This document shows, piece after piece, positions 16,900-56,898 of a DNA stretch of 64,000 nt. Every line of letters starts with the position of its first letter. Positions within the stretch are counted from its first letter, which is position 1. The position numbers were made by a program, and so were the translations under genes. The notes under the pieces were generated by a model that saw nothing but the letters and a program-made list of their open reading frames with translations, ran no database searches and was not told where the DNA came from. The stretch lies in assembly GCA_001798605.1 (NCBI GenBank), contig MGST01000016.1, positions 1,640 through 65,639 of the forward strand, in the 5' to 3' direction. The DNA comes from Deltaproteobacteria bacterium RIFOXYA12_FULL_58_15. Its GTDB lineage: Bacteria > Myxococcota > XYA12-FULL-58-9.

Positions 16900-17105
16900 C
16901 TCCATCGTGATTGGCTTGAGAGCAAGACGGACCTTCAATTCGCGGTGGGGCTGGATCCGAATCGGCGAAGGCGTATAAGATTCCCGTTGATTTCTAGGTC
17001 TCTTGGCGGTGCCCATATATAGTGCAACGTGAGGATAGGTGCGGGCAATTTGCCCCGGGAGCGAGCCCAACTGCGAAAATCGATGGCGCGAGGATCTCCG
17101 AGTCC

Positions 17106-27868: not shown

Positions 27869-29806
27869 ATGAAGTTTACATGTGATCAGTGCAACGCCCA
27901 ATACATGATTGCCGACGAGAAGGTCGGCGCCAAGGGTGTTAAGGTCAAGTGCAAGAAGTGTGCACACATCATCATTGTCAAGCCAGCAACCGCTGAAGAG
28001 CTCAAGGCAGAGAAGTTCGAGTCAAATGTGGGCGGATTCGGTGGGTTCAATGAGCCTACCCAAGCAATGTCCGCAGATCAGCTCGCGGCACTCAAGGATT
28101 CCTCTGGTGAGGGAAATGGTGGTGACCTGTTTGGAAATGATCCGTTTGCGGCGTCTGGCGATCAAGCGCCTGTAAGTGATGCCCGATTCGGTGGTGCCGC
28201 AGGTTTTGGCGGCGCGAGCCCAAGTTTCGGTGGTGACGCTCCGAGCTTTGGTGGTAACGCTCCGAGCTTTGGTGGCGTTGCGAGCGAATCGTCCATCTTT
28301 GGTGGTGATACGGGTTTTGGCCAAGCCCCAAGTTTTGGTAACGCCTCTGCCGGTTCGCAAGTACCTGCCGACGAACCAGGAAGTGCTTTTGGTGCCAATT
28401 TTGGTGCAGGCTTTGGCGACAGCGCCAACGCCTTTGCTGGTGGTTTTGGCGGTGCCAATCCCTCTTTTGGTGGGCACCAAAGCGGCGAAACGGCGTTGGA
28501 TTCACTAGGGGCGGATACCTCCGCCCTGGCGCCTTCGATGAGGGCACCGGGTGAGAAGGAATGGTATGTGGCTGTCGATGAGGCTCAGATCGGCCCTGTC
28601 GATATCGCAGAAATAGAGCAGCGCTGGGATGCCTTGGAAGTAGACGAGGACACCCTAGCCTGGAAGTCGGGAATGCAGGACTGGGTTCCCGTGGCAGAGA
28701 TTGCTGATCTCGCCTATCTGGTGACCGAGCGGCCGCAGAGGAAAGCCGCTCTTGGTGCCGTGCCGAGCGCGACTTCAGGTGGATCTCTTGGTGCCATCGC
28801 CTCCACCGGTCTCGGGCCGGTAAGCTTTGGCGGCGAGACGGGGGGTGGTGGTAATCGCGGTGGGGATGTGTCCTGGACTCCGTCTGCTGCCAGTGCTCTG
28901 TCGTCGTTGGTCCAAGACGAGTTGACCACGAGTCCCGCCCAGCCAGCGGCAGTGCCTGCACCGACTCCCTCAGACATGGGAATGCCGAGCTTTGGTGCCA
29001 GTGACCTATTTGGCGGTGCCAGTGGCGGTGCTGCTATGGCCATGCCAGCACCAATGCCCGCGGCAGATCCCTTTGCCGGTGGTGGTGGCGGTTGGTCGGT
29101 TCCCAAGCCAGAAGCAAAATCGAGCGGCCTCAAGCCCATTCACTTGGCTCTCGCCGGAATGGCGGTGCTGTTGGTGGGCTTGGTCGTTGTTGTTGTGTTG
29201 GTGGTCCTGCGGCCTCCGGTAACAGTGCCAGGTGAGCCCATCAGAAACCCAGAACCGGTGGGAATGTTGGCAGCCAACGATCCAAAGCCCGTCCCGGATC
29301 CGCAGCCCGAAAAGCCAGTTACGGAGTCCAAGGTCGAAGATCCCGGACCAGGCTCTTCTGACGATGAGTTGGGCAAGGGACGACGCAAGAGGAAAGGCGG
29401 CTCGGTTAATCCAAGCCCTGCACCGTCTCCGACGCCCCCGAAGGTTACGCCAACCAAGCCGCCTAAGGGTCCCGCAGACGACATCTTCAAGAGCGCGGCG
29501 AAGGCCTCGCTGTCCAAGGCCGACATTATGAGTGGCGTCAAGAATGGCATGGGGGCAGTGAAGGACTGCATTCAGGGTGCCCGTGGCAAGGGCGAGCTGA
29601 CCCCAGGTAAGCACACTCTGGTGCTCAAGTGGACCATCAAGGCCAATGGCAAAGTCGTGGATCCTTCAGTCATAGGTCCCAATTACGTTCTTGGCACCTC
29701 GTTGCCTGCGTGTTTTGCTCGGGGCATGCGCACGTGGACATTCCCGGCGTCACAGAGCGACTCGCCAGTTAAGAACTTCCCCTTCGGTCCATTCAACATC
29801 CACTAA
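27869..29806 (+). CDS. gltJ: Zinc-ribbon, GYF and TonB-like domain protein, GltJ (AgmX)
   Basis: A 645-aa protein with domains in the order of GltJ. An MJ0042-type zinc ribbon uses Cys 5, 8, 28 and 31. A Phe-Gly-rich linker with SFGG/GFGG repeats covers about 50-210. A GYF-type domain (about 229-285) carries EWYVAVDEAQIGPVD and WKSGMQDWVPV. A Pro/Gly linker follows, then one membrane helix (about 421-447, LALAGMAVLLVGLVVVVVLV), a Pro-rich periplasmic spacer and a C-terminal AgmX/PglI TonB-like domain (about 540-645, KDCIQGARGKG, LVLKWTIKANG, RTWTFPA). In M. xanthus the cytoplasmic part of GltJ is reported to engage the MglA GTPase. It is the last gene of the locus. All expected domains are present. 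Confidence 0.9.
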   Translation: MKFTCDQCNAQYMIADEKVGAKGVKVKCKKCAHIIIVKPATAEELKAEKFESNVGGFGGFNEPTQAMSADQLAALKDSSGEGNGGDLFGNDPFAASGDQAPVSDARFGGAAGFGGASPSFGGDAPSFGGNAPSFGGVASESSIFGGDTGFGQAPSFGNASAGSQVPADEPGSAFGANFGAGFGDSANAFAGGFGGANPSFGGHQSGETALDSLGADTSALAPSMRAPGEKEWYVAVDEAQIGPVDIAEIEQRWDALEVDEDTLAWKSGMQDWVPVAEIADLAYLVTERPQRKAALGAVPSATSGGSLGAIASTGLGPVSFGGETGGGGNRGGDVSWTPSAASALSSLVQDELTTSPAQPAAVPAPTPSDMGMPSFGASDLFGGASGGAAMAMPAPMPAADPFAGGGGGWSVPKPEAKSSGLKPIHLALAGMAVLLVGLVVVVVLVVLRPPVTVPGEPIRNPEPVGMLAANDPKPVPDPQPEKPVTESKVEDPGPGSSDDELGKGRRKRKGGSVNPSPAPSPTPPKVTPTKPPKGPADDIFKSAAKASLSKADIMSGVKNGMGAVKDCIQGARGKGELTPGKHTLVLKWTIKANGKVVDPSVIGPNYVLGTSLPACFARGMRTWTFPASQSDSPVKNFPFGPFNIH

Positions 29807-31924: not shown

Positions 31925-32809
31925 TTACGTGGTTACGTACTTGCCAATGATCGGCTGCAGCACCTCTTTGCGCTCCTTTGGTATTGCGCCCTCGTGGGTG
32001 AGGATTGCTGAGGCGAGGGCAGTGGCGCAGCCACAGTGGGCATGTTCGGCGTGTTGTTTGTCCATTGCGTCCATACCGGGCAGCGCGTGTTCCAAGACTC
32101 GTCGTACGTTGGCGGCATTGCGTTTGAGGATCTCGACAACGGCGCTGGCGCTGACATCCTTTTCGCTTTGGTGCCAGCAATCGTAGTCGGTTACCAACGC
32201 GAGGGTGGCGTAATGCATCTCGGCTTCACGTGCCAATTTGCATTCTGGAATGGCGGTCATGCCGATGACGTCGACTTCCCAGCTGCGATAGATGCTCGAC
32301 TCAGCACGAGTTGAGAACGCCGGGCCTTCCATGCAGACGTATGTACCTTTGGGATGGCACTGCACCCCGCACGCAACGACACTTGCCGCCAGGTGCTCAG
32401 CGAGGGGAGAGCAGACGGGATCCCCGAGGCCCACGTGTGCAACGATGCCCTCACCGAAGAAGGTGCTGGGACGTTGGCCGTGGGTCCGGTCGACAAATTG
32501 TGATGGTACGACGAAGTCTCCAGGATTGATATCCTCTCGCATCGACCCGACCGCTGACACAGAGATCAACCACTCCACACCGAGGCTCTTGAGGGCGAAG
32601 ACATTGGCTCTGTATGGCACCTCGGTTGGCAGTAGACTGTGCCCCCGTCCATGGCGTGGGACGAACACCAAGTGAACACTCTCGAGGTCGCCAGTGACCA
32701 ACACATCTGATGGGCTGCCAAATGGCGTGTCGACTTTGATTTCCCGTGCAAAAGAGAGCCCATCGAGGGCGTACAGCCCTGTACCCCCTATGATGCCTAC
32801 TGTTGTCAT
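31925..32809 (-). CDS. mtnP: 5'-Methylthioadenosine phosphorylase
   Basis: The 294-aa product matches the MTAP family: N-terminal IGGTGLYALDGL, the phosphate and ribose region VPRHGRGHSLLPTEVPYRAN, LISVSAVGSMREDINPGDFVVP, CMEGPAFSTRAES and the purine-site DVIGMTAIPECKLAREAEM followed by ALVTDYDCW. It would convert 5'-methylthioadenosine (from polyamine or related metabolism) and phosphate to adenine and methylthioribose 1-phosphate in the methionine salvage route. Length is normal and all motifs are intact. No other methionine salvage gene is nearby; the upstream neighbour is a 58-aa membrane peptide and the downstream one a putative anion exporter. Confidence 0.93.
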   Translation of the reverse strand: MTTVGIIGGTGLYALDGLSFAREIKVDTPFGSPSDVLVTGDLESVHLVFVPRHGRGHSLLPTEVPYRANVFALKSLGVEWLISVSAVGSMREDINPGDFVVPSQFVDRTHGQRPSTFFGEGIVAHVGLGDPVCSPLAEHLAASVVACGVQCHPKGTYVCMEGPAFSTRAESSIYRSWEVDVIGMTAIPECKLAREAEMHYATLALVTDYDCWHQSEKDVSASAVVEILKRNAANVRRVLEHALPGMDAMDKQHAEHAHCGCATALASAILTHEGAIPKERKEVLQPIIGKYVTT

Positions 32810-33065: not shown

Positions 33066-34469
33066 TCAGAAGGTGAAGATCAATGAGGCGAACCAGCTGA
33101 AAACCACGTGCTGCTCGTCTTTGAAGCGGAAGCCTACCTGATCGTACGATGGCAGATTTTTTTCAGAGCAGACGTCACCGCTCGAGTTGTGGCAGAAGTA
33201 GGGGTTGATGACGTCTTTTTCGGTGTTCAAATCAGAATCGGGGGGGAGTACTTGGTTGTCGCCGTTTTCGTCGCTCCCCACCTCCTCATAGGTGACAAAG
33301 TGCTCATTCATGTAACCGAATGAGAGACCTGCCTGGAAGCGCAGAAACTCTGCCGCTTGAATATAAAGGCCCAACAAACCCCGGACTCCAAATGCCTGCT
33401 CGACGTAGGTCATCTCCCCCAGGGCGTCGCTGAGCAAACCATAGCTGCGGCCCTCGCTATAAAATGCCGTGCGGATGCCGAGATCGATGGCGACCTTGCG
33501 GCTGTTCTTCAGATCCTCGACCGCCACAATCTCCATGCCAGCATTGAGCTCGGCACGGTGGGGGGGCTTGCGACCAAAGTCTTCATAGGAGCGGGTCAGG
33601 GCCTTGGGGGCCTGAGCTGAGGGAACCGGCAGTGTGTAAGTGAATTCCATGTAGGGGTCGATGTAACCGCGGCGATTTTCATTGGGGTCGATGCCGATGA
33701 GACCAAAATTGCCAATGCGTTTCGACAGTGCTGTGCCGAAAGTGAGGTAGTGTACGCCATCACCTACTGAACCGGGTTTGTCCTCGCTGGCTCGTTTGCT
33801 AAATGAGAACGCATCGGCGAGCCAAGGATTGGACCAAATGAACGATAGCTGCCACATGGGCTTGCTCTCGTCGCGTTCGTCGCTCAGGGCTGCCCATTTG
33901 AGCCCGAAGTCCATACCCCCAGTTCGGTAGCCGAACTCGTCGATGTTGCCCCAACCAGTGTGCTTGCTGCGGAAACCATCGTCGAACGTCTCGCCGAGCA
34001 CGAACAGGGAATCGTTGGCGTCCCCTGTCTTGGGATCGATCGAGCTGGTGTCAGGAGTGACTCCCTTTGCGTATTTGAGCGCCGTGGTGTCACCAAGCAC
34101 GTAATGAAAATTGAGCACGGCGGCGAGGTCGTGAAAAATGCCGATCTGGGACTTGATGTCGAGGACATTGACTCCCCGTTCCCACTCGGCCTCATCCACC
34201 GGCAGGCAATCGCGACTGTTGCCCTCCTCACAGCCGTCAGATGACAACCCCTGGCGAACGAGAGGCTCGCGAGTGATCTTGCCGTTGGACAGGTGCATCC
34301 TGAAGGCGACGCCCATGTACAAATCGAAAGGATCAGGACGCTCGGTGTCGCCAATGATGATGGTGTCGGCTGCGTCCGCCACGTCTGTTATCTCTGCCGC
34401 CGACGCCACGCTGCCAAGGGCCACCAAAACGAGGATCAGCAAAAAGTGCAAACACAACCGTTTAGGCAT
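33066..34469 (-). CDS. Outer-membrane beta-barrel protein (467 aa), unknown role
   Basis: The protein begins MPKRLCLHFLLILVLVALGS with signal peptidase cleavage near ASAAE, and ends in ASLIFTF, with terminal Phe, as outer-membrane proteins do. Between these are long stretches of alternating strands (PFDLYMGVAFRMHL, HYLTFGTALSKRIG, FLRFQAGLSFGYMN), loop segments with Asp/Gly, and a Cys-containing loop near the C-terminus (NPYFCHNSSGDVCSE). No known porin or transporter motif is visible. The ATG at 34469 is preferred over an upstream in-frame start that would precede the signal peptide with 19 extra residues. It sits 99 bp downstream of an NtrC-type regulator gene. Function unknown. Confidence 0.7.
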   Translation of the reverse strand: MPKRLCLHFLLILVLVALGSVASAAEITDVADAADTIIIGDTERPDPFDLYMGVAFRMHLSNGKITREPLVRQGLSSDGCEEGNSRDCLPVDEAEWERGVNVLDIKSQIGIFHDLAAVLNFHYVLGDTTALKYAKGVTPDTSSIDPKTGDANDSLFVLGETFDDGFRSKHTGWGNIDEFGYRTGGMDFGLKWAALSDERDESKPMWQLSFIWSNPWLADAFSFSKRASEDKPGSVGDGVHYLTFGTALSKRIGNFGLIGIDPNENRRGYIDPYMEFTYTLPVPSAQAPKALTRSYEDFGRKPPHRAELNAGMEIVAVEDLKNSRKVAIDLGIRTAFYSEGRSYGLLSDALGEMTYVEQAFGVRGLLGLYIQAAEFLRFQAGLSFGYMNEHFVTYEEVGSDENGDNQVLPPDSDLNTEKDVINPYFCHNSSGDVCSEKNLPSYDQVGFRFKDEQHVVFSWFASLIFTF

Positions 34470-34568
34470 CGCTGCTCCCGATGGCTTGAGCCGTGGATAT
34501 CTCCCAACCCTTGAGAAACAATCCAAAATCGAGCTCGGCGGCTAGGCTAGACGCGAGCGGTTAGAAGG

Positions 34569-35951
34569 TCAAGTCCTTTCCCCGTTGCGCAAGTCAAACT
34601 CCTTCATCTTGTTCTGCAAGCCTTTGCGGCTGATGCGCAAGAGGTGGGCGGCCCGAGTAACGTTTCCCCCGGTTGTTTCCAGTGCCTTGACGATGAGATC
34701 GCGCTCCAGCTCTTCGGTTGCTTGCCTGACGATCTCTTTCATGGACGCATTGGTTGTGTCGAGGGATCGCCCAAGGTGTCCACCGGTGATAGGAGATCGC
34801 AAGGGCTCGGGAAGATCTGCCAACTCGACGACGTCGCTCTCTGCGAACAGAGAAGTTCGTTCGATGACGTTCTCAAGCTCACGGATGTTGCCTGGCCACG
34901 CATAGGATCTCAAAGCGGCGATGGCGGTCTCTGAGAGTCCCGTGATGTTCTTCTGCAACCGCTCATTGTACTTGGTGACGAATGCTTTCACCAACAACGG
35001 GATGTCGTCAGTGCGATCCCGCAACGGTGGCAGTCGTATGGGAACAACATTGAGTCGATAATAGAGGTCTTCCCGGAACCGACCGGCTGCAATCTCTTCC
35101 GCGAGGTTTCGGTTGGTGGCGGCGACGACGCGCACGTCGACTCGGATCGTCCGGATGCCACCCACCCGCTCCAACTCATTCTCTTGCAGGGCGCGCAAGA
35201 GCTTGACCTGCATCTCGTTGGGGATTTCTGCGATCTCGTCAAGAAACAGCGTGCCGGTATCGGCGAGCTCGAACCTACCTGGTTTGGAACTCACGGCCCC
35301 AGTGAATGCGCCCTTTTCGTAACCGAAGAATTCACTTTCCATGAGGTCTTTAGGGATGGCGGCGCAATTGACCTTGATCAGTGGTTGTTCCCGTCGCTTG
35401 CTGTTCTGGTGCAATGCAGTTGCGACGAGCTCTTTGCCTGTGCCAGATTCCCCAGTGATGAGTACCGTCGACGGTGTGGCAGCGACCTTTTCGATGATCG
35501 AGTAGACCTCTTGCATGGGCGACGCCTGTCCGATCATGCCGAAGCGGCCCGTGCCTTCGTGTGTGAGTGGGGGCTCTCGACGGGATTCCTTCCCTACAGA
35601 CGACGCCTTGCGAACGGCAAGGCGAAGCTCATCCTTGTCGAACGGTTTGGTGATGTAGTCAAACGCTCCAGTTTTCAACGCTGTGACTGCGGTGTCGACA
35701 GTGCCATGTGCGGTGATAACAATAACCGGAAGTCCGGGCTCGATCGCGTTGACCTCGCTTAGCAGCTCGAGTCCTGTCATCTTGGGCATCTTGAGATCGG
35801 TGATGAGGATGTCGATGCCACCCCCTTTGATAACCTGCAAAGCCTGCTCGCCATCGGCCACAGCCATGGTTTCATGACCATCTCGCTCTAGCAGCGCGCA
35901 TAGGACCTTGCGCAGGTTGGCTTCGTCGTCGGCTATGAGTACGGTTGACAC
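34569..35951 (-). CDS. NtrC-family sigma-54 response regulator
   Basis: The 460-aa protein has a receiver domain (acidic D8-D9, phospho-acceptor D52 in ITDLKMPKM, Thr in VITAHG, Lys in YITKPF), a sigma-54 AAA+ domain with Walker A GESGTGKE, the GAFTGA loop ([10 protein letters not shown]) and Walker [10 protein letters not shown], and a C-terminal Fis-type helix-turn-helix ([20 protein letters not shown]). It is a complete activator of sigma-54 promoters. The GTG at 35951 is the start. No sensor kinase gene is adjacent, so its partner lies elsewhere. It precedes the outer-membrane protein gene in the same orientation and may regulate it, but I saw no clear -24/-12 site in front of that gene. 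Confidence 0.93.
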
Positions 35952-36065: not shown

Positions 36066-36095
36066 TTGGGTCTTTTGTCGATCGGGTGCTATGAT
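36066..36095 (+). promoter_or_regulatory. Possible extended -10 promoter
   Basis: TTGGGT at 36066-36071 and TATGAT at 36090-36095 with an 18-base spacer, preceded by TGC directly before the -10 box (extended -10 element). It lies 49 bases before the zinc-ribbon/TPR gene. Confidence 0.5.
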
Positions 36096-36144: not shown

Positions 36145-37776
36145 ATGTTGATCACCTGTTTGAAGTGCAAAAAGCCGGTCTTCGTCAGCTCGTCCATTGT
36201 GGCTGCCGGAGAGGCCACAATCCCCTGCAATGCGTGCAGTGCGGCGTTGATCGTTTCGAGCGGGGGATCAGTGCGCTTGGAAACCGAAATGCCGGCCGAC
36301 GATCCGTTGGAATCTGAGCCCCCACGGATTGAGGTTCCTGAGTTCGAGTCACCGCCTCAGGTTGAGCCGCTGGCGCACGCTGGGTTGCCGCCACACATTG
36401 GGGTAGCGCCACAGCCACCATCAGAGCCGCCGTACATTGAGGCAGAACCACAGCCACCCTCTGAGCCGGTGTACATTGAGGCAGCACCCGGGCCACCGTC
36501 AGGGCCGCCCCCTCTACCGCCTGTGCAGACCAGTTTAGTTGATGAGGTAGGAGCCGGGGAAACAGACCTGTGGGAGACAGCGCCCATTGAGTCATTCATG
36601 GAGGCACCCCTCGATATACCGGTGCCGACGATGGGGACGGGCTCGGACGGTGCTGACCAAAACGACTGCCATGGCAACACTCAGTGGACTGCACTGGCGG
36701 AGACGGCCGCTGTGCAACCTGTGCAACCTGCCCATGCGATTTATGCGCAAGATATGCATCAGCCAGAGATGCATGGGATCGTTCCACCTCCCGAGTATCA
36801 ACCTGAACCGCCCGTTCCAAAGTCCGTAATGAGGGTTGAGCCGCGGCCCATCATTCCAGAACCAATAGGAATCGCTGTCGAGCCCACGCCGGTTGTTGCG
36901 CCTCGCGATACAGAGCCGCGCACCCAAGTCGAGTCGACTGCCGAGATGGACTGGTCTGTCAATTCTTTGCCAGGCAGGGGGTATGGGGGTCGAGCCGGTA
37001 CGGTGCCCATGGACGAGGCGGTCTTTCGCCGGGAGGCCCGAAGCGGTCGCATGCCTATGGTTGTTGCGGCACTGGCTTTGTTTCTGACCGGGACGGCGTT
37101 GTGGGCCGCGGGAATTGTCCGCATCCCTGGTCTCCCGGTTCCCGGTGCTGCGCGTGAACCGGTCGAAATCGCTCAGCTGTCGCCGATACCCGAGCCGGTG
37201 CCTACTATTGATTCAACGTCAACCACCGGAGCCGTGCCGACCACCGGAAGAGTGCCCACCGCCGATATTGAGCCGTCGCAGCCAATTTCCGACGACGGGC
37301 AGCCGTACAACGATGTGGCTCTTGACGGCAATCGCGGCAAGCGACAAAAACAGAAGAAAGGTCGCCGCAAGGGAAAAGGGCGAGAGGATGATGTCGACCC
37401 GGCTGATGACCGCCCTTTGCGTCCCGCACCTACCGTCGAGTCCGGGGTGCCACAGTCCCCCGCAGTTCCGCCGCCACCCGTGGCGCCATCTGCGCCAAGC
37501 AAAGATGCCGCAGCGGACCTGCATTACAAGCAGGGTAATCTGTATCTAAGAGAGAAAAAGGTCGCATTGGCAATCGATGAGCTCAAAGAGTGCTTGGCCG
37601 CCAATCCGCAGTATGGCCTGGCATATCGCTCACTGGGAGTGGCCTACATGCTACTCGGTCGCGAGAAGAGCGCTGTGCAAGCCTACGAGCAGTTCGTGAA
37701 GGTATCGCCAAGCCACCGCGACACCCCGAAGGTCAAACAGATCATTTCTGACTACTACGCCCGCAACCCACGTTGA
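36145..37776 (+). CDS. Zinc-ribbon, proline-rich, TM and TPR protein
   Basis: The 543-aa product has an N-terminal zinc ribbon with Cys 5, 8, 28 and 31, the same spacing as in the GltJ protein of this window. A long Pro/Glu-rich linker (about 55-290) carries tandem PPYIEAE / PVYIEAA units and PPSGPPPLPP, then one membrane helix (about 303-325, VVAALALFLTGTALWAAGIV), a second Pro/Thr linker, a Lys-rich patch and a C-terminal TPR pair (about 455-543, LHYKQGNLYLREKKVALAID). The topology is zinc ribbon in the cytoplasm and TPR in the periplasm. The ATG at 36145 is preferred over an earlier in-frame ATG at 36091, which overlaps the promoter-like site. It is divergent from the NtrC gene. Function unknown. 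Confidence 0.75.
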   Translation: MLITCLKCKKPVFVSSSIVAAGEATIPCNACSAALIVSSGGSVRLETEMPADDPLESEPPRIEVPEFESPPQVEPLAHAGLPPHIGVAPQPPSEPPYIEAEPQPPSEPVYIEAAPGPPSGPPPLPPVQTSLVDEVGAGETDLWETAPIESFMEAPLDIPVPTMGTGSDGADQNDCHGNTQWTALAETAAVQPVQPAHAIYAQDMHQPEMHGIVPPPEYQPEPPVPKSVMRVEPRPIIPEPIGIAVEPTPVVAPRDTEPRTQVESTAEMDWSVNSLPGRGYGGRAGTVPMDEAVFRREARSGRMPMVVAALALFLTGTALWAAGIVRIPGLPVPGAAREPVEIAQLSPIPEPVPTIDSTSTTGAVPTTGRVPTADIEPSQPISDDGQPYNDVALDGNRGKRQKQKKGRRKGKGREDDVDPADDRPLRPAPTVESGVPQSPAVPPPPVAPSAPSKDAAADLHYKQGNLYLREKKVALAIDELKECLAANPQYGLAYRSLGVAYMLLGREKSAVQAYEQFVKVSPSHRDTPKVKQIISDYYARNPR

Positions 37777-37857: not shown

Positions 37858-39558
37858 TCAAAGCTCCAGGCGATAACCAACGGCGGCCATGACCGCACCA
37901 GGGTCGAGGCCGTCGATGTTATCCGATGACCATGGTATTCCGCTGGTGACGTAGACGCGCGCGAGCACGCAGCCCGGCCCAACTCGGTATCCAGCCCCTG
38001 CGAGCACATTAAGTGCTGGCGTGACATTCGGGCCTGAGTCGGCGTCCACTCGACGATACCGCGTTTTCGCCCACGTCAAGATGGCACCCCCCGAAGCGCC
38101 CACCTCCAGAAGTAATCCCGATGCAGGGGTCGGAGCGGACCAAGTTGCGCCGAGCAGCACCGGGACAGTCGTGAGCCCGATGCGGACACGGCTCACGCCT
38201 TCGGGGCTGTTGAAATCGGCCACCTGGCGCGAAGCGTCGGCCATGCCATAACCTGCGACGAAGTGGATCAACAATTGCGAGCTAGAGATCGGAATGGCGA
38301 AATTGGCTTCGAACAGTCCCGCGCCTCCCACTTCAGCGAAAGCGTTTGGGGCCCAGGTGCCACCCAGTATTGCGAAGCTGACTCCTCCCTGTGGGCGCTC
38401 CGATGTCCTCAGATCCCCTTTGCGAGCGGCGTCAATGCCGAGGATCGGGGGCTCCTCGTTTCCGACAGCGACAAAATCAGGACGAACTGACGCGCCCAAA
38501 ACCGCGGTATCAGAGAGCGACATCTGCAGCTTGTGCGCGCCCACGGGAATCGGCACGCGCACCGCGACTGGCTGCGACAATTGATAGTTCGGGTCTGGAG
38601 TGCGAAAATCCTCTGAGGCTGGCTGATCGAGGGCAAGGGTCTGCACCAACACGTCATCGAGCAAGATCCCCAGAACCACGGATGAGAGAGTTTGCGGTTG
38701 CATCTGCGAGCGGTGGGCATGGATGGTCAAGAGCACAGTGCCCGGGCCAACGACGTTGAGCGCCAAACCTGGATCAATAGCCACCTGGTAATACTCGTTG
38801 GAACCGCCGGCCGCCGTGATGGTGTGCCGCTTGAGCACTCCAGCGATCTCGAGTCCCGGTTCGGCGGACGTCACTGTCACGGGACTGGAAACCAGACCCG
38901 GCTCGGCCTGCGGCCGGTTCGTCTCCGCGGTGGGGGATGGTTCTGCGATAGCCAGGTCGGGCCCTGCATCAACCATGTCGGGATCTGATACTGCCGGTTT
39001 CGGCTCTCCTGCAACGAGAGTGGGCTCGCCCGCGTCGGAAGGGTGCCCCACCTCGCCAGCGTTGGACTGAGCGAGATTGGGTTGGGTGCCATCCGTGGGA
39101 GGTTCCACGGTTGGAACGTCAACCTGCACCAACAGAGCGTAGCCGATCGCCCCCTTTTTGTTCTGATGCAGAATCGAAACCGTGTGTGTCCCCTCAGTGA
39201 TGGGGAAGCTGAGCTCTCGTTCCTCTCCGACGCGCCAGCGTGGTTTTCCCGTGACAGACACGTCATCCAACGCCTTGTCAGACAGCGCTAGAGTCATCCG
39301 CCGCACGGTCCCTACCCACACCCTCAATGAGCCAGGGGCCGAGAGGCTGTGCCCCGATTTCTTCATCAGTCCCCAGGCACGCACCCGCAGAATGCCCGGC
39401 CCTTGGACCTCGAGACTCGTCTTTCGTTTGGCGGGGATGATCACCGCTTCGGAAGGAACCGCACCAGCCAGCCGGGTCTCGTCGGGTTGGGGTTTGAGTT
39501 GCATTTGTGTGGCCCACTGCGGGGCCGCACCCAATGAGGCAACAAGTAGGAGGATCAT
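37858..39558 (-). CDS. Exported protein of a tandem paralogous pair, copy A
   Basis: A 566-aa protein with an N-terminal signal (MILLLVASLGAAPQW). Repeated beta-rich modules follow: a first module with VQGPGILRVRAWGLMKKSG and GTHTVSILHQNKKGAIGYALLVQVD, a linker rich in Pro/Glu/Asp, a second similar module (VVGPGTVLLTIHAHRSQMQP, PVGAHKLQMSLSDTAVLGASV), and a C-terminal barrel-like part ending VGYRLEL. The next gene upstream encodes a clear paralogue with the same order of modules (TDGPGKITLRFIGLRQRSNG, HTVIVRVRKNARIGLGLIVEVD). No catalytic or binding motif is recognised. The order of modules suggests carbohydrate-binding or adhesion-like sheets plus a barrel, but this is a guess. Confidence 0.65.
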   Translation of the reverse strand: MILLLVASLGAAPQWATQMQLKPQPDETRLAGAVPSEAVIIPAKRKTSLEVQGPGILRVRAWGLMKKSGHSLSAPGSLRVWVGTVRRMTLALSDKALDDVSVTGKPRWRVGEERELSFPITEGTHTVSILHQNKKGAIGYALLVQVDVPTVEPPTDGTQPNLAQSNAGEVGHPSDAGEPTLVAGEPKPAVSDPDMVDAGPDLAIAEPSPTAETNRPQAEPGLVSSPVTVTSAEPGLEIAGVLKRHTITAAGGSNEYYQVAIDPGLALNVVGPGTVLLTIHAHRSQMQPQTLSSVVLGILLDDVLVQTLALDQPASEDFRTPDPNYQLSQPVAVRVPIPVGAHKLQMSLSDTAVLGASVRPDFVAVGNEEPPILGIDAARKGDLRTSERPQGGVSFAILGGTWAPNAFAEVGGAGLFEANFAIPISSSQLLIHFVAGYGMADASRQVADFNSPEGVSRVRIGLTTVPVLLGATWSAPTPASGLLLEVGASGGAILTWAKTRYRRVDADSGPNVTPALNVLAGAGYRVGPGCVLARVYVTSGIPWSSDNIDGLDPGAVMAAVGYRLEL

Positions 39559-39650: not shown

Positions 39651-41327
39651 CTATTCGCCGCCAAAAATCCAGCGGTAACCGAGGCCAAAGGAAGCGCCAC
39701 TGGGATCAACCAGGCCGATCTGTCTTGCGGCAAACGGATGCGCCAGAATGAAGTCGCTTCGCAATAGCACCTGACCGGGACCCATATGGAGCGTCCAGGT
39801 GAGTTGGGCGACGGCCGCCGCGGTGACACTGTTGTCCGAAATGGTTACGCCCCCAGCTCGCAATTCCATCCAGCCGAGCAAGGCACCGCCGCCGATGCCG
39901 ATCTCGAGACCCAAGGGTGATGGCATGGCCGCCGACCATTTTGCCTCCGCCAAAACTGGCATTGAGGTGAGTGTCGAGCTCATCCTCGCGATGCCATTGG
40001 CGGCCCTGGGGTCGGCGTAGGTGCGGGGATCATGAACTCGGGCCATGGACACGCCGAGTCCGATGGAAAAATGCGGGCCCGCCACGGGCACTGCGAAAGC
40101 GGTCTCGGCACGGACGGCGAATCCCAAGTGGGACAATTCGAGTGGGAGAAAACCGGCACCCAGCATCGCGACCGAGACATCACCGGAAACCTCTGGCGGT
40201 GGCGCTTCGATGTGGAGATCGTCAGAGCGTGCAACCTCGGCACTCAGTAACCCCGGCTCGTCGAAGCGGCCTGTGCCGGCGAACTGCGGCCGCACAGATG
40301 CACCAGCACTCGCCGTGTCGGAGAGAGTCAGCCGGATTTTGTGGGAGCCTGCATTGATAGGCACTCGTTGTGTCGTTCGGGCGGAAAGCGAAAACACGGC
40401 ACCATCAATGGTGTAGGCCGAGCCTGCGGCCTCGCCAATGGCCAGAGACTTGAGAAGCACTTCGTCGAGCATGACCCCGACAATCAGGGTTTTGAGAGTG
40501 TCAGGGGTGTCCGACTGGCGGTGCGCATGGATGTCCAACGAAAGCAAGCCTGGGCCCATCGCATCGAGGCTGAGACCCTCGTCGATGGTCGCCAGATAGA
40601 ACTTTTCGTCTCCGCTCGGACCGTGAATGGTGTGTGTGGATGGTGCGCCGCTCACAGCGATTCCTGGCTCTGAGACAATTCGAATCGGGCTGCTCGCAAT
40701 TGCGCGGGATGGCTCTGGCAACTGTGGCGGGGTGTCTGCAGCCATGAGGGGCGTTTTGGGCTCGGTCCCGCTTTCGGAACTCGAGCTCGCAGACTTGGTG
40801 GATGCGCTGTGGGCGAGATCGCTTTGGGTGGACTCGGTTCCACCAGGCTCAGTGGCTGAAACGTTGACTGCGGGGGGCGCGGAAGGATTGTCGACCTCGA
40901 CAATGAGCCCGAGGCCAATGCGGGCGTTTTTGCGCACGCGGACGATGACGGTGTGTGTGCCTGGCTTGAGTGGAATCGAGATCTGGCGTTCACGTGTGGG
41001 GATCCAGCGTTTCTTTCCGCTCACCCGCCACCCACTTTGGCGTTTGTTGCGCAGCTGGACCTTCTTGTGGAGTTTGCCGTCCACCCACACGACAGCCATG
41101 CCCGGCTTCGAGAGTCGGCCATTGCTGCGTTGACGCAGGCCGATGAATCGCAGGGTGATCTTGCCGGGCCCATCGGTATGGATTGTGAGTGCCTCAAGCG
41201 GTCGGAGGTGAGCTGCCTCGCTTGGGATACCTGTGCCTTCGAGCGCGAGCTCACTCGGCGTCGGATCAATATCGAGCTCGACGCCCCACGCCGGTGCCGC
41301 GACGACCAAAAGTGCGAGAGTCCACAT
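39651..41327 (-). CDS. Exported protein of a tandem paralogous pair, copy B
   Basis: A 558-aa protein with a signal peptide (MWTLALLVVAAPAWG), paralogous to the downstream gene product along its whole length. Shared features include the first module (GPGKITLRFIGLRQRSNG), a Ser/Thr/Pro linker (about 170-240), the second module (MGPGLLSLDIHAHRQSDTPD; INAGSHKIRLTLSDTASAGASVRP) and a C-terminal barrel-like stretch ending FGLGYRWIFG. The genes are separated by 92 bp and read the same way, so they probably form one operon and arose by duplication. Sequence identity between the copies looks moderate, not recent. Function unknown. Confidence 0.65.
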   Translation of the reverse strand: MWTLALLVVAAPAWGVELDIDPTPSELALEGTGIPSEAAHLRPLEALTIHTDGPGKITLRFIGLRQRSNGRLSKPGMAVVWVDGKLHKKVQLRNKRQSGWRVSGKKRWIPTRERQISIPLKPGTHTVIVRVRKNARIGLGLIVEVDNPSAPPAVNVSATEPGGTESTQSDLAHSASTKSASSSSESGTEPKTPLMAADTPPQLPEPSRAIASSPIRIVSEPGIAVSGAPSTHTIHGPSGDEKFYLATIDEGLSLDAMGPGLLSLDIHAHRQSDTPDTLKTLIVGVMLDEVLLKSLAIGEAAGSAYTIDGAVFSLSARTTQRVPINAGSHKIRLTLSDTASAGASVRPQFAGTGRFDEPGLLSAEVARSDDLHIEAPPPEVSGDVSVAMLGAGFLPLELSHLGFAVRAETAFAVPVAGPHFSIGLGVSMARVHDPRTYADPRAANGIARMSSTLTSMPVLAEAKWSAAMPSPLGLEIGIGGGALLGWMELRAGGVTISDNSVTAAAVAQLTWTLHMGPGQVLLRSDFILAHPFAARQIGLVDPSGASFGLGYRWIFGGE

Positions 41328-41937: not shown

Positions 41938-43278
41938 ATGGTTGAGTTGGGAAGAGAATCGTTGTTGACGCTCGCGCCTGTTCTCCGGGCCGATAGCGAC
42001 CTGAAGTCGTTGCAGCTGAACGCGCAAGAGGGTTTTATCATCTCTCAGGTGGATGGCCTGACTCCGGCGGGCGTGTTGTGCGATCTGCTCGCCATGGACG
42101 AAACCACCCTGATCATTGCTCTTTTGCGCCTTGAGAAGCTGGGTGTTGTTCGTTGGGCACGGCGAAACACAGGCCCCAAGGGAGTCCGGCAGTCGGCGGA
42201 CGATACCGCGGCGCAGCGGGTGATCGCGGATAGCGTTGCCGAGGATCCAGCTCTGACCGAAGCGTGTGATCTCTCCCGCGATGAACGCCTCTTGATTCTC
42301 AAGGCTGAGGGTAGTCTCGCTGGCACTCATTGGGAAGTTCTGGGAATCGGTGGCGACGCGACTGGAGCTGAAGTCAAGCGTGCCTACTTTGTTGCGTCCA
42401 AGTCGTTTCATCCGGATCGCTTCTTTGGCCGGGACCTAGGTTCGTTCCGGGGGCGTTTGGATAAGATCTTCCGCGGCGTGAAGTTGGCCTACGACACGCT
42501 CAGTCGCGAGGAGAGCCGCAAGAGCTATCATGCCGCCCACCCACCACCAGTTGAGTTGAATCAGAAATCCGAGGGCATCTCGGGGGCCGTCCAGAGTCCT
42601 GCACCGTCATCCACGAGGGCAACAACAGTACCTCGGGGAGAAAGCGCTGACGACAAGGCGGCACGGCTTGAAAAACGTCGTCAGCAGATTCTTGAAGAAC
42701 GGCGCTCGAAACGTCTGAGCAAACACGCCTCTTCTGCCGGCCAAGCGGCTGGTGGAAGAAAGCGAAAGGCCGAGGAGATCTACCAGTTGGGTCTCGCTCA
42801 GTTAAACAGAGGCAACGTTTTCGCCGCGGTCGCGAGCTTCAAGTTGGCCATGACCTACGACGAGACCAATGAACGGTATCAAAACGCATTTGCGGAAGCC
42901 AACGGCGGCGCTCTGCTTGAGAGGGCGCGTCAGGTTGCCGGGGAGGCAGAGGACGCCGTTGCTTCGGGCAAGTCAGGCGATGCGGGTCGGCTCTTCTCCC
43001 GGGCATTTGAGATGGTGCCGCATAGAGCCGAGTATGCGGTGCGAGCAGCTGAACAGCTGCTCGCAGCCGGCAAAACCAGCGAGGCGTTGCGGTTCGCCAC
43101 CCAGGCTGTCGAAGTGTCTCCCAACCGGCCAAGTGCTCATGTCGCAAAGGCAGCGGTGTTGGAAAACACCGGAGATCTTCGGGCAGCGCTCGTGGCGTTG
43201 GAGAAAGCCCAGACCTTGGATGCCAGTGACAGCCATGTTACAAAATCCATCAAACGCCTGATGAAGAGACTGAGATAA
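41938..43278 (+). CDS. J-domain TPR protein with N-terminal winged-helix-like domain
   Basis: The 446-aa product has three parts. The first (about 20-80) is a small domain with GFIISQVDGLTPAGVLCDLL and LLRLEKLGVVRW, which looks like a winged helix. The second is a J-domain-like segment (about 125-201) with the HPD signature in SFHPDRFF (about residues 158-160) and a LAYDTLSREESRKSYHA helix. The third is a C-terminal TPR region (about 280-446), with a charged linker before it. It lies upstream of a DnaK paralogue, suggesting it is the dedicated co-chaperone. The same N-terminal small domain recurs at the C-terminus of the protein encoded after DnaK. J-domain protein is a confident call; partners are inferred. 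Confidence 0.82.
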   Translation: MVELGRESLLTLAPVLRADSDLKSLQLNAQEGFIISQVDGLTPAGVLCDLLAMDETTLIIALLRLEKLGVVRWARRNTGPKGVRQSADDTAAQRVIADSVAEDPALTEACDLSRDERLLILKAEGSLAGTHWEVLGIGGDATGAEVKRAYFVASKSFHPDRFFGRDLGSFRGRLDKIFRGVKLAYDTLSREESRKSYHAAHPPPVELNQKSEGISGAVQSPAPSSTRATTVPRGESADDKAARLEKRRQQILEERRSKRLSKHASSAGQAAGGRKRKAEEIYQLGLAQLNRGNVFAAVASFKLAMTYDETNERYQNAFAEANGGALLERARQVAGEAEDAVASGKSGDAGRLFSRAFEMVPHRAEYAVRAAEQLLAAGKTSEALRFATQAVEVSPNRPSAHVAKAAVLENTGDLRAALVALEKAQTLDASDSHVTKSIKRLMKRLR

Positions 43279-43411
43279 GTGGACAGCAACAGTGGGGGCA
43301 TTGACTGCAGGCGCTGTCTGTCCCATGCCAACTGCCGGTTTCGGAAACCTCGAGGGGCTGTCTCGGGTCCGAGCGGCATTGATGGGGCCAAGTGGCCCTG
43401 ATGTGGGTAAT

Positions 43412-45238
43412 ATGGGCAAGGTAATTGGTATAGACCTCGGTACCACCAACTCCTGCGTGGCGATTGTCGACCATGACGGACCCAGGGTGATTCCGAGCCG
43501 CACGGGTCAGCACACCATGCCGTCGGTCGTGGCGATCACGGAAAGTGGCAAACAGCTGGTTGGCCATCTGGCGAAGCGTCAGGCGATCACGAATCCCCGC
43601 AATACCATTTACGGTGCCAAGCGCTTGATTGGTCGGCGTTGGGATTCGAGGGACGTTCAGAAGTCCATATCGCTGGTGTCCTTCGACATGTCGAAGGGCC
43701 CTCACGACGACGTCCGATTGAGCATGGGCGGCAAGGAATACGCTATCCCAGAGATCTCTTCCCTGGTGCTACATGAGATGCGTGTCGTCGCCGAGGAGAA
43801 TTTGGGCGAATCCGTTGGGCAGGCCGTGATTACTGTGCCTGCCTATTTCAATGACAACCAGCGGCAAGCGACCAAGGATGCCGGTCGGATCGCTGGTCTC
43901 GACGTCTTGCGCATCATCAATGAGCCAACTGCTGCGGCTTTGGCCTATGGTTATGGCAAGGGATTGGAGCAGAAAGTCGCCATCTATGACCTCGGTGGCG
44001 GCACTTTTGATATTTCCATATTGGAAATCGGCCAGGGGGTTTTCGAGGTTCTATCCACCGGTGGAGATACCTTCCTTGGTGGTGAGGATTTCGATGAGCG
44101 TATCATCGCCTGGCTTATCGAAGATTTCCAAGGGCAGCACGGCATCGATCTGCGACAGGACAAGATGGCTGTGCAACGGTTGCGTGACGCCGCTGAGAAG
44201 GCAAAGATAGAGCTCTCGTCATTGAATGAAGTCGATATCAATCTGCCGTTCATTTTCTCCAAGGGCAAAGGGGAGGCGTTGCATCTGCAAAAACAGCTCA
44301 CCCGAGCGGCACTCGACGGATTGGTGGGCGATCTCATTGAGCGGACCGTCGCGATCTGCGAGCAAGCGCTCGACGATGCCGGGATGAAGAAGTCGGATAT
44401 TGCCGCGGTGATTCTTGTCGGTGGTATGACTCGGATGCCGAGGGTACAGCGCACGGTCAACGATTTTTTCGGCATTCCTCCGTCCAAGGGGGTCCATCCT
44501 GACGAGGTCGTTGCATGTGGGGCGGCAATTCAAGCGCATCTGCTGTCCACCGGGTCCATTGACACCTTGCTCCTCGACGTGACGCCCCATCATCTTGGCA
44601 TCATGGTGGCAGGTGGGCTCTTCGACGTCATCATTCACAAGGACACCACGATACCCACGAGCGCCACCAAAGTTTTCACCACAGTTCGCGACGGGCAGCC
44701 GCAGGTACGCATCATGGTGTTGCAGGGAGAGTCGAGCCAAGCCGAGGAGAACGAGCTTCTCGGTGAGTTCGTCCTCGATGGATTGCGTGCGGCGCCACGG
44801 GGCGAAGTCCGCGTCGAGGTGACCTTTGACATTACAGCTGATGGCATCGTCGGGGTCTCGGCGAAGGACGTCGAGACAGGGCGCGAACAGACCATCATGG
44901 TCACGGCGTCGAGTGGTCTCACTGAAGATGAGATCCGCGAGATGGCAGCACGCAATCAGGATTTCTTGGTGAAATCAGATAGCGCAGGGGGGAACGATGA
45001 GGTTCGCCAAAAAGTGCAGAACCTGCTCAACGAGATCGACAAGTTTCTACCGCAGGCGCGGCCAATCATTGATGGCACCGATTTTGGTGTTGATGCACTG
45101 AACAAGGCTGAGCAAACCCTCGAGCGGGCCCGTCATGCGATGTTGCAGAAGGACACCAAAGAGCTGTCAGACTGCATCAAACCGTTGGAACGCACCTTGT
45201 CTCTGCTCAACAATGTGATCCAGAAACTTGGCGGATAG
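43412..45238 (+). CDS. dnaK: DnaK (Hsp70) paralogue with short C-terminus
   Basis: The 608-aa protein begins MGKVIGIDLGTTNSCVAIVD, the phosphate-1 motif of Hsp70, and has the connect and phosphate-2 motifs (EPTAAALAYG, IYDLGGGTFDISIL), the adenosine motif (VGGMTRMPRVQ) and a substrate-binding domain ending in TASSGLTEDEIREM. The lid region is shorter than in canonical DnaK (about 638 residues) and the tail ends QKLGG, without the usual acidic EEVD-like end. The ATG at 43412 is chosen over upstream in-frame codons because it gives the standard N-terminus. No grpE or standard dnaJ is nearby; instead a J-domain TPR protein precedes it. It may be specialised for envelope or motility factors, but that is inference. 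Confidence 0.9.
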   Translation: MGKVIGIDLGTTNSCVAIVDHDGPRVIPSRTGQHTMPSVVAITESGKQLVGHLAKRQAITNPRNTIYGAKRLIGRRWDSRDVQKSISLVSFDMSKGPHDDVRLSMGGKEYAIPEISSLVLHEMRVVAEENLGESVGQAVITVPAYFNDNQRQATKDAGRIAGLDVLRIINEPTAAALAYGYGKGLEQKVAIYDLGGGTFDISILEIGQGVFEVLSTGGDTFLGGEDFDERIIAWLIEDFQGQHGIDLRQDKMAVQRLRDAAEKAKIELSSLNEVDINLPFIFSKGKGEALHLQKQLTRAALDGLVGDLIERTVAICEQALDDAGMKKSDIAAVILVGGMTRMPRVQRTVNDFFGIPPSKGVHPDEVVACGAAIQAHLLSTGSIDTLLLDVTPHHLGIMVAGGLFDVIIHKDTTIPTSATKVFTTVRDGQPQVRIMVLQGESSQAEENELLGEFVLDGLRAAPRGEVRVEVTFDITADGIVGVSAKDVETGREQTIMVTASSGLTEDEIREMAARNQDFLVKSDSAGGNDEVRQKVQNLLNEIDKFLPQARPIIDGTDFGVDALNKAEQTLERARHAMLQKDTKELSDCIKPLERTLSLLNNVIQKLGG

Positions 45239-45248
45239 GGGAACTCCT

Positions 45249-46286
45249 GTGGGTGGAGATTTGCTGAATGCGGGGTTGGAGCTATTTGCCAGAGGTGATC
45301 TGGAAGGAGCAGCGCGCAAGTGGCTGGAGGCCAAGGAACACGGCGCAGCGGATCCACAGATTGAAGACTATTTGTACCATGTAGCCAGCGTCGCGCCGGC
45401 CATCATTGAGAAGATCAACGCGGAGAAGGGTGTTGGTCAATCACCGCAAGCGGTTGAGCTCACCGCGCCAACTCTCGAGCCCATCGCGCCGACTCTCGAG
45501 CCCATCGCGCCTGGTATGAGTTCGGTCAGTTTCCCCACTCCGATTGAGCTCCCTTTGGCACCGCAAGCCCAGGCACCTTTGATGCCGTCCGCAGCGATCG
45601 ATCCACCAACAGTTGTGCAGGTGCATTCTTCTTCTTTGGTGCCATCGATTCCGACCGTCAGAACCGATTCGCCCATTGCTCTGCCTGGCGTGACGGAACG
45701 GTCTCCTACCTTGGCACAGGCTGCAGTGTTGCAGGCTCCGATTGCCGTGCCCCCGTCACCAAGTGCTGTGCCCCGGTCACCAGATGACGGCCCTTGGGGA
45801 GGGGCAACGGCATTGGGGCCGGCGATCGAGGTGGCGCAGAGCTCCGGGGGGCTCGATCTTGTGCTGGTGCCGACTTCCGAGCGGAGCCAGACATCTTTGC
45901 CGCCTGCCGAGATCGTTCAAGGGGAGAATCGCCTCAAGGAATTCTTGAACTTGGACGACTTCACGGGGGCGCTCGCCGTTGCGGATGAGCTCCTGCAGAG
46001 AGATTCAGGTCACGAATTGGCGCTTGTCGCGCGGGCACGTTGTCGCGACGTCTTGAAGGGGATGTACGAGTCGAAGATTGGTGACCTTTTGGGAGTGCCG
46101 CGAGTGTTGGTGCCACCGGAGCAAGTGATTTGGCTGGACTTGGACCACCGCTCTGGTTTCATTTTGGCCCAAGTCGATGGCGTATCAACCTACGATGAGC
46201 TCATGGAGTTGTCGGGGATGGATCGGCTTGAGGCGCTGCGCATCATTTCGCAGCTGGTGCAGAAGGGTGTGATCGGTAAGGGCTGA
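45249..46286 (+). CDS. TPR-fragment protein with C-terminal winged-helix-like domain
   Basis: The 345-aa product starts with a TPR-like helix pair (LLNAGLELFARGDLEGAARKW), followed by a Pro/Ser/Ala linker (about 65-210) that contains an exact in-frame repeat LEPIAPTLEPIAP (21-bp unit). A second short helical region (about 225-275) follows, then a C-terminal domain (about 294-343: GFILAQVDGVSTYDELMEL, ALRIISQLVQKGVI) that matches the N-terminal domain of the J-domain protein encoded two genes upstream. The GTG at 45249, with AGGGGAA upstream, lies 11 bp after the DnaK stop, so the genes are likely cotranscribed. Function unknown; context suggests a chaperone-system adaptor. Confidence 0.65.
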   Translation: MGGDLLNAGLELFARGDLEGAARKWLEAKEHGAADPQIEDYLYHVASVAPAIIEKINAEKGVGQSPQAVELTAPTLEPIAPTLEPIAPGMSSVSFPTPIELPLAPQAQAPLMPSAAIDPPTVVQVHSSSLVPSIPTVRTDSPIALPGVTERSPTLAQAAVLQAPIAVPPSPSAVPRSPDDGPWGGATALGPAIEVAQSSGGLDLVLVPTSERSQTSLPPAEIVQGENRLKEFLNLDDFTGALAVADELLQRDSGHELALVARARCRDVLKGMYESKIGDLLGVPRVLVPPEQVIWLDLDHRSGFILAQVDGVSTYDELMELSGMDRLEALRIISQLVQKGVIGKG

Positions 46287-56283: not shown

Positions 56284-56898
56284 CTACTTCTTCTTGGCCG
56301 CCTTCTTCTTGGCCGTCTTCTTCTTGGCCGTCTTCTTCTTGGCCGTCTTCTTCTTGGCCGTCTTCTTCTTGGCCAAAGGAGCTGCCGTTTGGGCGATGAT
56401 CGCACCTATTTCAGGGCCAATAGCGTGGCCAAGGAGCTGCATCATCCGGGTGATGTGAATCAGATGCAGATAGAACGCCGTCATATGTGAAGCGCTCGAC
56501 ACGTGTGTTACGCAATCGGCGACAAAGCTCTGCAGCTCGGGAAAGCCGTCGGTCATCACGTCGAGGCGTTCTGCGATGCGTTGGCGATGGCTGGGGCCAA
56601 ATTGTGAGCTGCCGTGCATTAATGGATCAGCAATGACAACGAGTGAGCGAACTTTGAGTGCAACGCGCAACACCAGGCGGATTGGTACACCCGAGCGCAA
56701 AAGCGTACCCGCAATGTCGATGGCACCATCGATTACCTCGGTACGCAAACGAGCTCGTCCTGCTTTTGAGTACCACCCGCCTTCCAGATAGCTGGTCATG
56801 GTTTGGGACGTTAGCGCCAACGCCTCGACCACTGCAAGGGTTGATTCTGTCCGGCTTTCGTCAAAGATGGCCTGGGGTCTGTTGGCGGCTGGTGGCAA
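56284..56898 (-). CDS. Helical protein with Lys/Ala repeat tail (204 aa)
   Basis: The product begins [16 protein letters not shown] and continues as a mostly helical domain of about 170 residues ([60 protein letters not shown]), which may be globular with several buried helices. It ends in a tail of repeated [10 protein letters not shown] units encoded by tandem 15-bp copies at about 56287-56375. Such Lys tails often bind nucleic acid or membranes. The start is uncertain: the TTG at 56898 is the first codon, and internal starts at later GTG or ATG codons are possible. It is divergent from the class IV aminotransferase gene. Function unknown. Confidence 0.55.

Follow-up and report, generated by a model that had tools for sequence, protein, structure and literature searches.

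The window analysed here, a 64,000-nucleotide stretch of DNA, comes from a draft genome of the Myxococcota (6.37 Mb in 381 contigs; G000 below). It carries gliding genes and, further downstream, genes for chaperones, and a gene at 36145-37776 lies between the two. The gliding proteins named by NCBIfam in the window are GltC, GltG, GltJ, and CglE (GltG and GltJ score under the curated cut-offs), and we take the 3,576-residue product of 17022-27752 to be GltI from its place ahead of GltJ. A DDE transposase gene (PF13701; 2186-3607, minus strand) lies close to the start of the gliding cluster, and the protein encoded at 56284-56898 (minus strand) has a lysine repeat of the TAKKK type at its end, a feature of histone-like tails. 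The main features of the locus are listed below.

27869-29806, plus strand: GltJ, with a zinc ribbon, GYF_2, and an AgmX/PglI C-terminal domain (NF033761, 222.9 bits, below the curated 450)
33066-34526, minus strand: probable outer-membrane barrel, read by eye, with no Pfam or NCBIfam match
34569-35951, minus strand: NtrC-type response regulator, divergent
36145-37776, plus strand: gene for a ribbon/TM/TPR protein of 543 residues, with orthologues in G001, G002, G004, and G005
36145-36279, plus strand: zinc ribbon (aa 1-45) of the MJ0042/ZitP/AgmX type, with C5, C8, C28, and C31, presumably cytoplasmic
36280-37050, plus strand: Pro-rich acidic arm (aa 46-302), predicted to be disordered (pLDDT mostly <50)
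37051-37119, plus strand: single transmembrane helix (aa ~303-325), from hydrophobicity and predicted structure
37333-37392, plus strand: Lys/Arg-rich patch (aa 397-416; 11 K/R of 20) in the putative periplasmic linker
37507-37773, plus strand: TPR tail (aa 455-543), common to PilZ and PilZ-kinase proteins, from Pfam and tail comparisons
41938-43278, plus strand: J-domain and TPR protein, MXAN_3015-like by family match and locus comparison
43292-45238, plus strand: Hsp70, MXAN_3016-like, with a likely start near 43412
45228-46286, plus strand: third gene of the chaperone trio, whose product has a C-terminal domain resembling the N-terminal domain of the J protein

The mechanical open reading frame of the 36145 protein opens at an ATG at 36091, and 36145 is preferred as the start because three orthologues begin MLVTC or MLVPC. 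The anatomy of the protein (ribbon, Pro-rich arm, one membrane helix, C-terminal TPR tail) is nearly certain. Pfam finds a TPR at aa 457-524 and nothing else, so that neither GYF_2 nor the periplasmic domain DUF3426 is detected, and NCBIfam does not find the AgmX/PglI C-terminal domain (NF033761). The first 45 and last 85 residues are strongly conserved in the three orthologues while the arm between them is not. The 19-residue stretch of highest hydrophobicity is aa 307-325, with four K/R among the 20 preceding residues and two on the other side; the charge balance around the helix is ambiguous in the G004 and G007 proteins. The predicted structure (mean pLDDT 47.7, from four sequences) comprises a confident ribbon (block pLDDT 73-92 over aa 1-50), a long arm of low confidence, one helix at aa 291-321, and tail helices. 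Foldseek with the full model gave zero matches at E<=0.001. From the charge balance and from paralogues with PilZ or kinase heads, we infer that the ribbon and arm lie inside the cell and the tail in the periplasm. A literature search found no paper on a ribbon/TM/TPR protein of this type, which is not proof of absence.

The N-terminal ribbon has the form CxxC-x19-CxxC. The earlier note had pointed out that its cysteines (5, 8, 28, and 31) stand at the same four positions as those of GltJ (27869-29806), and reading both sequences bears this out. The note had gone on to propose a common partner or a link to gliding, and for this the spacing itself offers little, since it is generic and not special to GltJ. 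It occurs in seven of the nine ribbon proteins found in the source genome (seven proteins, with eight matches, above the TIGR02098 cut-off, plus the 36145 protein and its paralogue C125), the exceptions being C199 (gap of 17) and C233 (gap of 20), and according to the available part of PMC5182065, Caulobacter ZitP likewise has C5, C8, C28, and C31. The same source, as far as available, describes the AgmX (GltJ) ribbon placed in Caulobacter as not localizing to the pole in the manner of ZitP; two ribbons spaced alike therefore need not have the same partners, and the observation guards against tying any ribbon protein to gliding on this ground.

The ribbons of the 36145 protein and the GltJ of the window share 10 of 40 residues, Cys included, as against 25 of 36 for the window GltJ and Myxococcus xanthus AgmX. 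There are eight basic residues in the GltJ ribbon and three in that of the 36145 protein, from which the conserved basic residues of GltJ are missing and whose net charge is low. BLASTP of the whole 36145 protein against the whole of GltJ gave nothing significant. The ribbon is missed by Pfam at E<=0.01 (the cut-offs of PF13717 and PF13719 are not reached), by NCBIfam at E<=0.1, and by the TIGR02098 profile in the source genome at E<=10; C125 scores 19.5 bits against a curated cut-off of 30.3. A single profile-profile comparison of the 36145 ribbon with GltJ-type ribbons (hhalign) gave 94.7% and E 5.6e-8, and the two types are thus distant homologues by profile. Because it is kept in six genomes, the 36145 ribbon is more than a chance resemblance. 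Zinc ribbons often bind nucleic acid, and the 36145 ribbon has a weak match to the ribosomal ribbon S27e (E 0.071) in the PDB. It is nevertheless very improbable that the ribbon has nucleic acid as its target, or simply senses metal, with the remainder of the protein as a membrane tether, given its low charge and its first matches, which are the AgmX (GltJ) ribbon by sequence (E 0.039) and the protein-binding ZitP ribbon by structure (Foldseek E 0.09; E 0.14 by PDB sequence), although none of these matches is significant.

The second route from the 36145 protein to the gliding complex suggested in the earlier note was its arm, as a possible ligand of the GYF domain of GltJ. Taken as aa 46-312, the arm has 267 residues, 52 of which are Pro (19.5%). 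The motif of known GYF ligands is PPG-x, and the 36145 arm has none. The G001 and G002 orthologues contain PPGP once each and the G004 orthologue contains PPGP and PPGA, none of these copies preceding a bulky hydrophobic residue, and PPG is absent from the G005 and G007 proteins. From one protein to the next, the arm differs widely in sequence and in Pro content, and Pro makes up 5% of the entire G007 protein. A literature search on GltJ, GYF, and MglA binding found no paper.

The distribution of the gene bears on the same question. Of the 195 Myxococcota genomes, 10 have a match to a profile of seven ribbons (A2) at E<=0.001. Six of these are among the eight genomes of the window's order (G000, G001, G002, G004, G005, and G007; E<=5.2e-6), the G007 protein being a related ribbon-TPR protein, and the other four lie outside the order (E 4e-4 to 7e-4). 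GltJ, sought in the order alone, is found in seven of the eight genomes, all except G006. The earlier note had named wide occurrence in genomes without glt genes as an argument against its proposal, and no such occurrence is seen in the order, as all six ribbon genomes have a GltJ match. Co-occurrence was the check that it had suggested, and this agreement says little because GltC (NF033756) is found in 177 of the 195 genomes at E<=1e-20 (148 above the cut-off) as against six with the order's ribbon protein. A link to gliding is supported by the place of the gene, and also by that of its nearest paralogue (below). The gene lies near gltJ in four of the six readable order genomes, which belong to three families, at 6.3 kb in G000, ~4.6 kb in G001, 13.6 kb in G004, and 2.4 kb in G005. 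It is not beside gltJ in G003 or G007; the G002 contig ends too early for the distance to be read, and G006 has neither the ribbon gene nor GltJ. On the other side of the G005 ribbon gene are GltC/GltA/B-like genes. Beyond the chaperone trio in G004 lies another set of GltC/GltD/GltG-like genes, which has diverged (~25-38% identity; L232, G004:C10:242001-262000).

The probable barrel at 33066-34526 stays beside the nucleoside phosphorylase (MTAP-like) gene at 31925-32809, named by eye, and near gltJ in G000, G001, G003, G004, G005, and G007 (in G004, gltJ is ~10 kb from the barrel), and it is a candidate for an extra gliding-related envelope protein of the order. The conservation of the phosphorylase-type gene at the same place means that the closeness of the ribbon gene to gltJ may be plain synteny. 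An accessory role in the gliding complex, in which the ribbon would bind MglA like that of GltJ or the arm would bind the GltJ GYF domain, could draw on this closeness, on the GltC/GltA/B-like neighbors in G005, on the constant company of GltJ, on the AgmX ribbon as the best, nonsignificant PDB match, and on a paralogue that follows a gene with an AgmX/PglI tail in G001 and G002. It is distinctly unlikely given the generic spacing (shared with ZitP), the loss of the basic ribbon residues, the poorly conserved arm, and the many genomes with glt genes and without the ribbon protein. A GltJ-like binding role for the 36145 protein is thus held with low confidence, and the protein may have a direct, as yet hypothetical role in gliding. 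The common partner proposed in the earlier note is partly supported by the positions found, in four of six genomes for gltJ and two of three for the paralogue, and the inference drawn from the ribbon is weak.

The other neighbors of the gene are of several kinds. The NtrC-type regulator at 34569-35951 adjoins the gene in G001, G002, and G004 with ~70% identity, and it is also present in G003, which lacks the gene. The possibility that the regulator acts via sigma-54 was rejected, as no -24/-12 site scoring at least 9 was found in five intergenic stretches with a consensus taken from general knowledge. Two barrel-like proteins encoded in tandem at 37858-39558 and 39651-41327 (minus strand) are related to each other (35% identity) and match no family. 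The pair is found only in family f1, and the two were rejected as ancestral partners of the tail since they are present in just G000, G001, and G002 of the eight order genomes.

The most constant neighbors are the three chaperone genes. The place of the ribbon gene next to trio genes is conserved in G000, G001, G002, G004, and G005, the J-domain/TPR, Hsp70, and 45228 genes all being found beside the orthologues in G001, G002, and G004. In G004 and G005, which represent two families, the J-domain gene is the very next gene after the ribbon gene and has the same orientation. The two are kept apart in G000-G002 by one or two barrel genes of opposite orientation and by a pterin synthase (PTPS) gene; since two reverse-strand genes intervene in the window, the ribbon gene and the J-domain gene do not form one operon here. 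Nor is the pairing obligatory, as G003 has a locus with the trio and without the ribbon gene, and in G007 the trio and the ribbon protein are on separate contigs. The trio itself extends beyond the order: among eight compared loci outside it (L120-L123 and L129-L132; the 3.5-kb contig L128 was left out), the full trio stands together in seven and the J-domain and Hsp70 genes alone in L123. The J-domain/TPR protein at its N terminus (~55 residues; 41938-42160) and the third protein at its C terminus (~55 residues; ~46098-46283) appear to carry one and the same small domain (hhalign 97.7%).

A scan of named genomes covered at least 80 loci, among which the AM003 locus of M. xanthus was read and L135, L136, and L147 served for the structure alignment. 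In AM003 the J-domain gene adjoins the Hsp70 gene in the same J-TPR/Hsp70/third-gene order, and no ribbon-TPR gene adjoins the trio. The four best Hsp70s of an M. xanthus-like genome map at 3.213, 3.556, 3.774, and 7.926 Mb, which fits MXAN_2747, 3016, 3192, and 6671 (assigned by map position, not by locus tag), and the Hsp70 of the trio is that at 3.556 Mb. By the available portion of PMC11019930, the J-domain protein MXAN_3015 binds MxDnaK1 and not MxDnaK2; deletion of MXAN_3016 lowers sporulation and oxidative resistance and leaves swarming normal (PMC8265645, available in part). The identification of the trio Hsp70 with SglK was rejected, as sglK pairs with a GrpE-like gene (PMC11019930, same portion) and the trio member maps to the position of MXAN_3016. 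The StkA locus was likewise rejected as a model for the chaperone genes, StkA being described in the accessible text of PMC4319316 as a protein of 540 residues with other neighbors. In a tree of 16 rows, the DnaK/SglK-like rows stand apart together with C102 of the source genome (four rows, starred, 98/97), and the 11 trio Hsp70s require one label change, an arrangement present in 44% of bootstrap trees; monophyly of the trio Hsp70s is weakly supported.

The tail of the 36145 protein is found in the source genome behind other heads, namely PilZ joined to a Ser/Thr kinase (PilZ-kinase; C32 and C14), PilZ (C7 and C167), and ribbon (C125) heads. The tail profile A5 has 13 matches in this genome at E<=1e-9, of which six reach at least 105 bits, and the 36145 tail scores 136.7 bits (the row from the window is inside the profile). 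Among the matches listed, all those of at least 90 bits fall within the order (15, mostly rows of A5 itself), and the next, at 88 bits, is in G189; some A5 match at 1e-9 is present in 168 of 195 genomes, as expected of TPRs. The proteins with one tail and exchangeable heads (zinc ribbon, PilZ, and PilZ-kinase) thus form a set confined to the order. In all 11 tail proteins tested, a clear hydrophobic stretch is followed by a basic patch (5-11 K/R in 20) before the tail. Because heads of the PilZ and kinase types have to be in the cytoplasm, the tail is expected on the periplasmic side. Lys/Arg-rich linker patches are also seen in many other single-pass proteins of the source genome, such as the C terminus of the L057 protein and, by eye, GltJ near aa 500.

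In two of three genomes (G001 and G002), the gene for the second ribbon protein of the order, the nearest paralogue of the 36145 protein, comes on the same strand after a gene whose product combines FHA with an AgmX/PglI tail. The AgmX/PglI C-terminal domains of these FHA proteins score 72.5 and 76.1 bits against a cut-off of 40. In G000 a different gene lies upstream of C125, and the FHA gene is not between. In G002 the paralogue is followed by MlaC and outer-membrane efflux genes (Pfam), with similar genes by eye in G001, and both rows (L061:4069-8147 and L063:6011-12214; Pfam calls for MlaC and efflux in L063 only) look like operons of FHA/TM/AgmX-PglI-tail, ribbon/TM/TPR paralogue, MlaC, and efflux genes. 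From this setting, the protein type serves more than one envelope system. Two further ribbon proteins of the source genome stand nearer to GltJ in their N-terminal half than the 36145 protein does: C233 (L066:5379-6647, minus strand) has an N-terminal ribbon like that of the 36145 protein but also a GYF_2 domain, and C61 (L056:8025-9806, plus strand) has a ribbon, TPRs, and, by eye, a transmembrane segment, as the 36145 protein does, but also a GYF-like stretch by eye.

The exchange of heads on one tail, the company of the paralogue, and the G007 ribbon protein that lies away from the trio could all be read as signs of a general trans-envelope adaptor with no special tie to chaperones or gliding, in which varied heads sense signals and the tail docks on a common periplasmic protein or on other tails. 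This is somewhat unlikely, as it leaves the conserved place beside the trio genes in G000, G001, G002, G004, and G005 out of account. The account preferred here, tentatively and as close to an even call, is that the 36145 protein is a ZitP-like trans-envelope adaptor that works with the chaperone set near the gliding machinery, its partners being putative. The protein would be a single-pass adaptor of the inner membrane, with the ribbon and a long flexible arm inside the cytoplasm and the tail on a basic flexible linker in the periplasm. Throughout the set, the common tail most likely would meet periplasmic partners of one kind, and the head would select the cytoplasmic signal or protein that is linked to the tail; if the set is as it looks, this would be a simple coupling of one periplasmic contact to several cytoplasmic inputs. 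The ribbon member is likely to be the ancestral first gene of the J-domain/Hsp70/third-gene operon beside gltI-gltJ, and from this place it most likely would draw the chaperones to the envelope, the site at which Glt and other large machines are put together.

Confidence in the chaperone link of the 36145 protein is moderate. The fuller claim that the order has a tail-sharing trans-envelope set whose ribbon member is a membrane receptor bringing a dedicated J-protein and Hsp70 to the envelope where Glt is built is unlikely as it stands. If the tail set is real, a paralogous Hsp70 system of myxobacteria would gain, in the 36145 protein, a first candidate for its receptor at the membrane.

Three known systems offer a comparison. 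The M. xanthus MXAN_3015/3016 locus has the trio order seen beside the 36145 gene but has no adjoining ribbon-TPR gene. GltJ/AgmX, an MglA effector by the available portion of PMC12288465, resembles the 36145 protein in its N-terminal ribbon of equal Cys spacing, its long arm, its one transmembrane helix, and its basic periplasmic stretch, but it has the GYF_2 and AgmX/PglI C-terminal domains that the 36145 protein lacks. ZitP is a bitopic protein (a topology that the 36145 protein would share) with an N-terminal ribbon holding C5, C8, C28, and C31 and one transmembrane helix, although its periplasmic part is DUF3426 and its arm is short, whereas the 36145 protein has a TPR tail and an arm of ~260 residues. 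The cytoplasmic partner of ZitP, bound through the ribbon, is PopZ, and its envelope partner, recruited by the periplasmic domain, is CpaM (PMC5182063, in the part available). The 36145 protein may follow the same logic, in which the ribbon would bind a cytoplasmic partner and the periplasmic domain would recruit a partner in the envelope.
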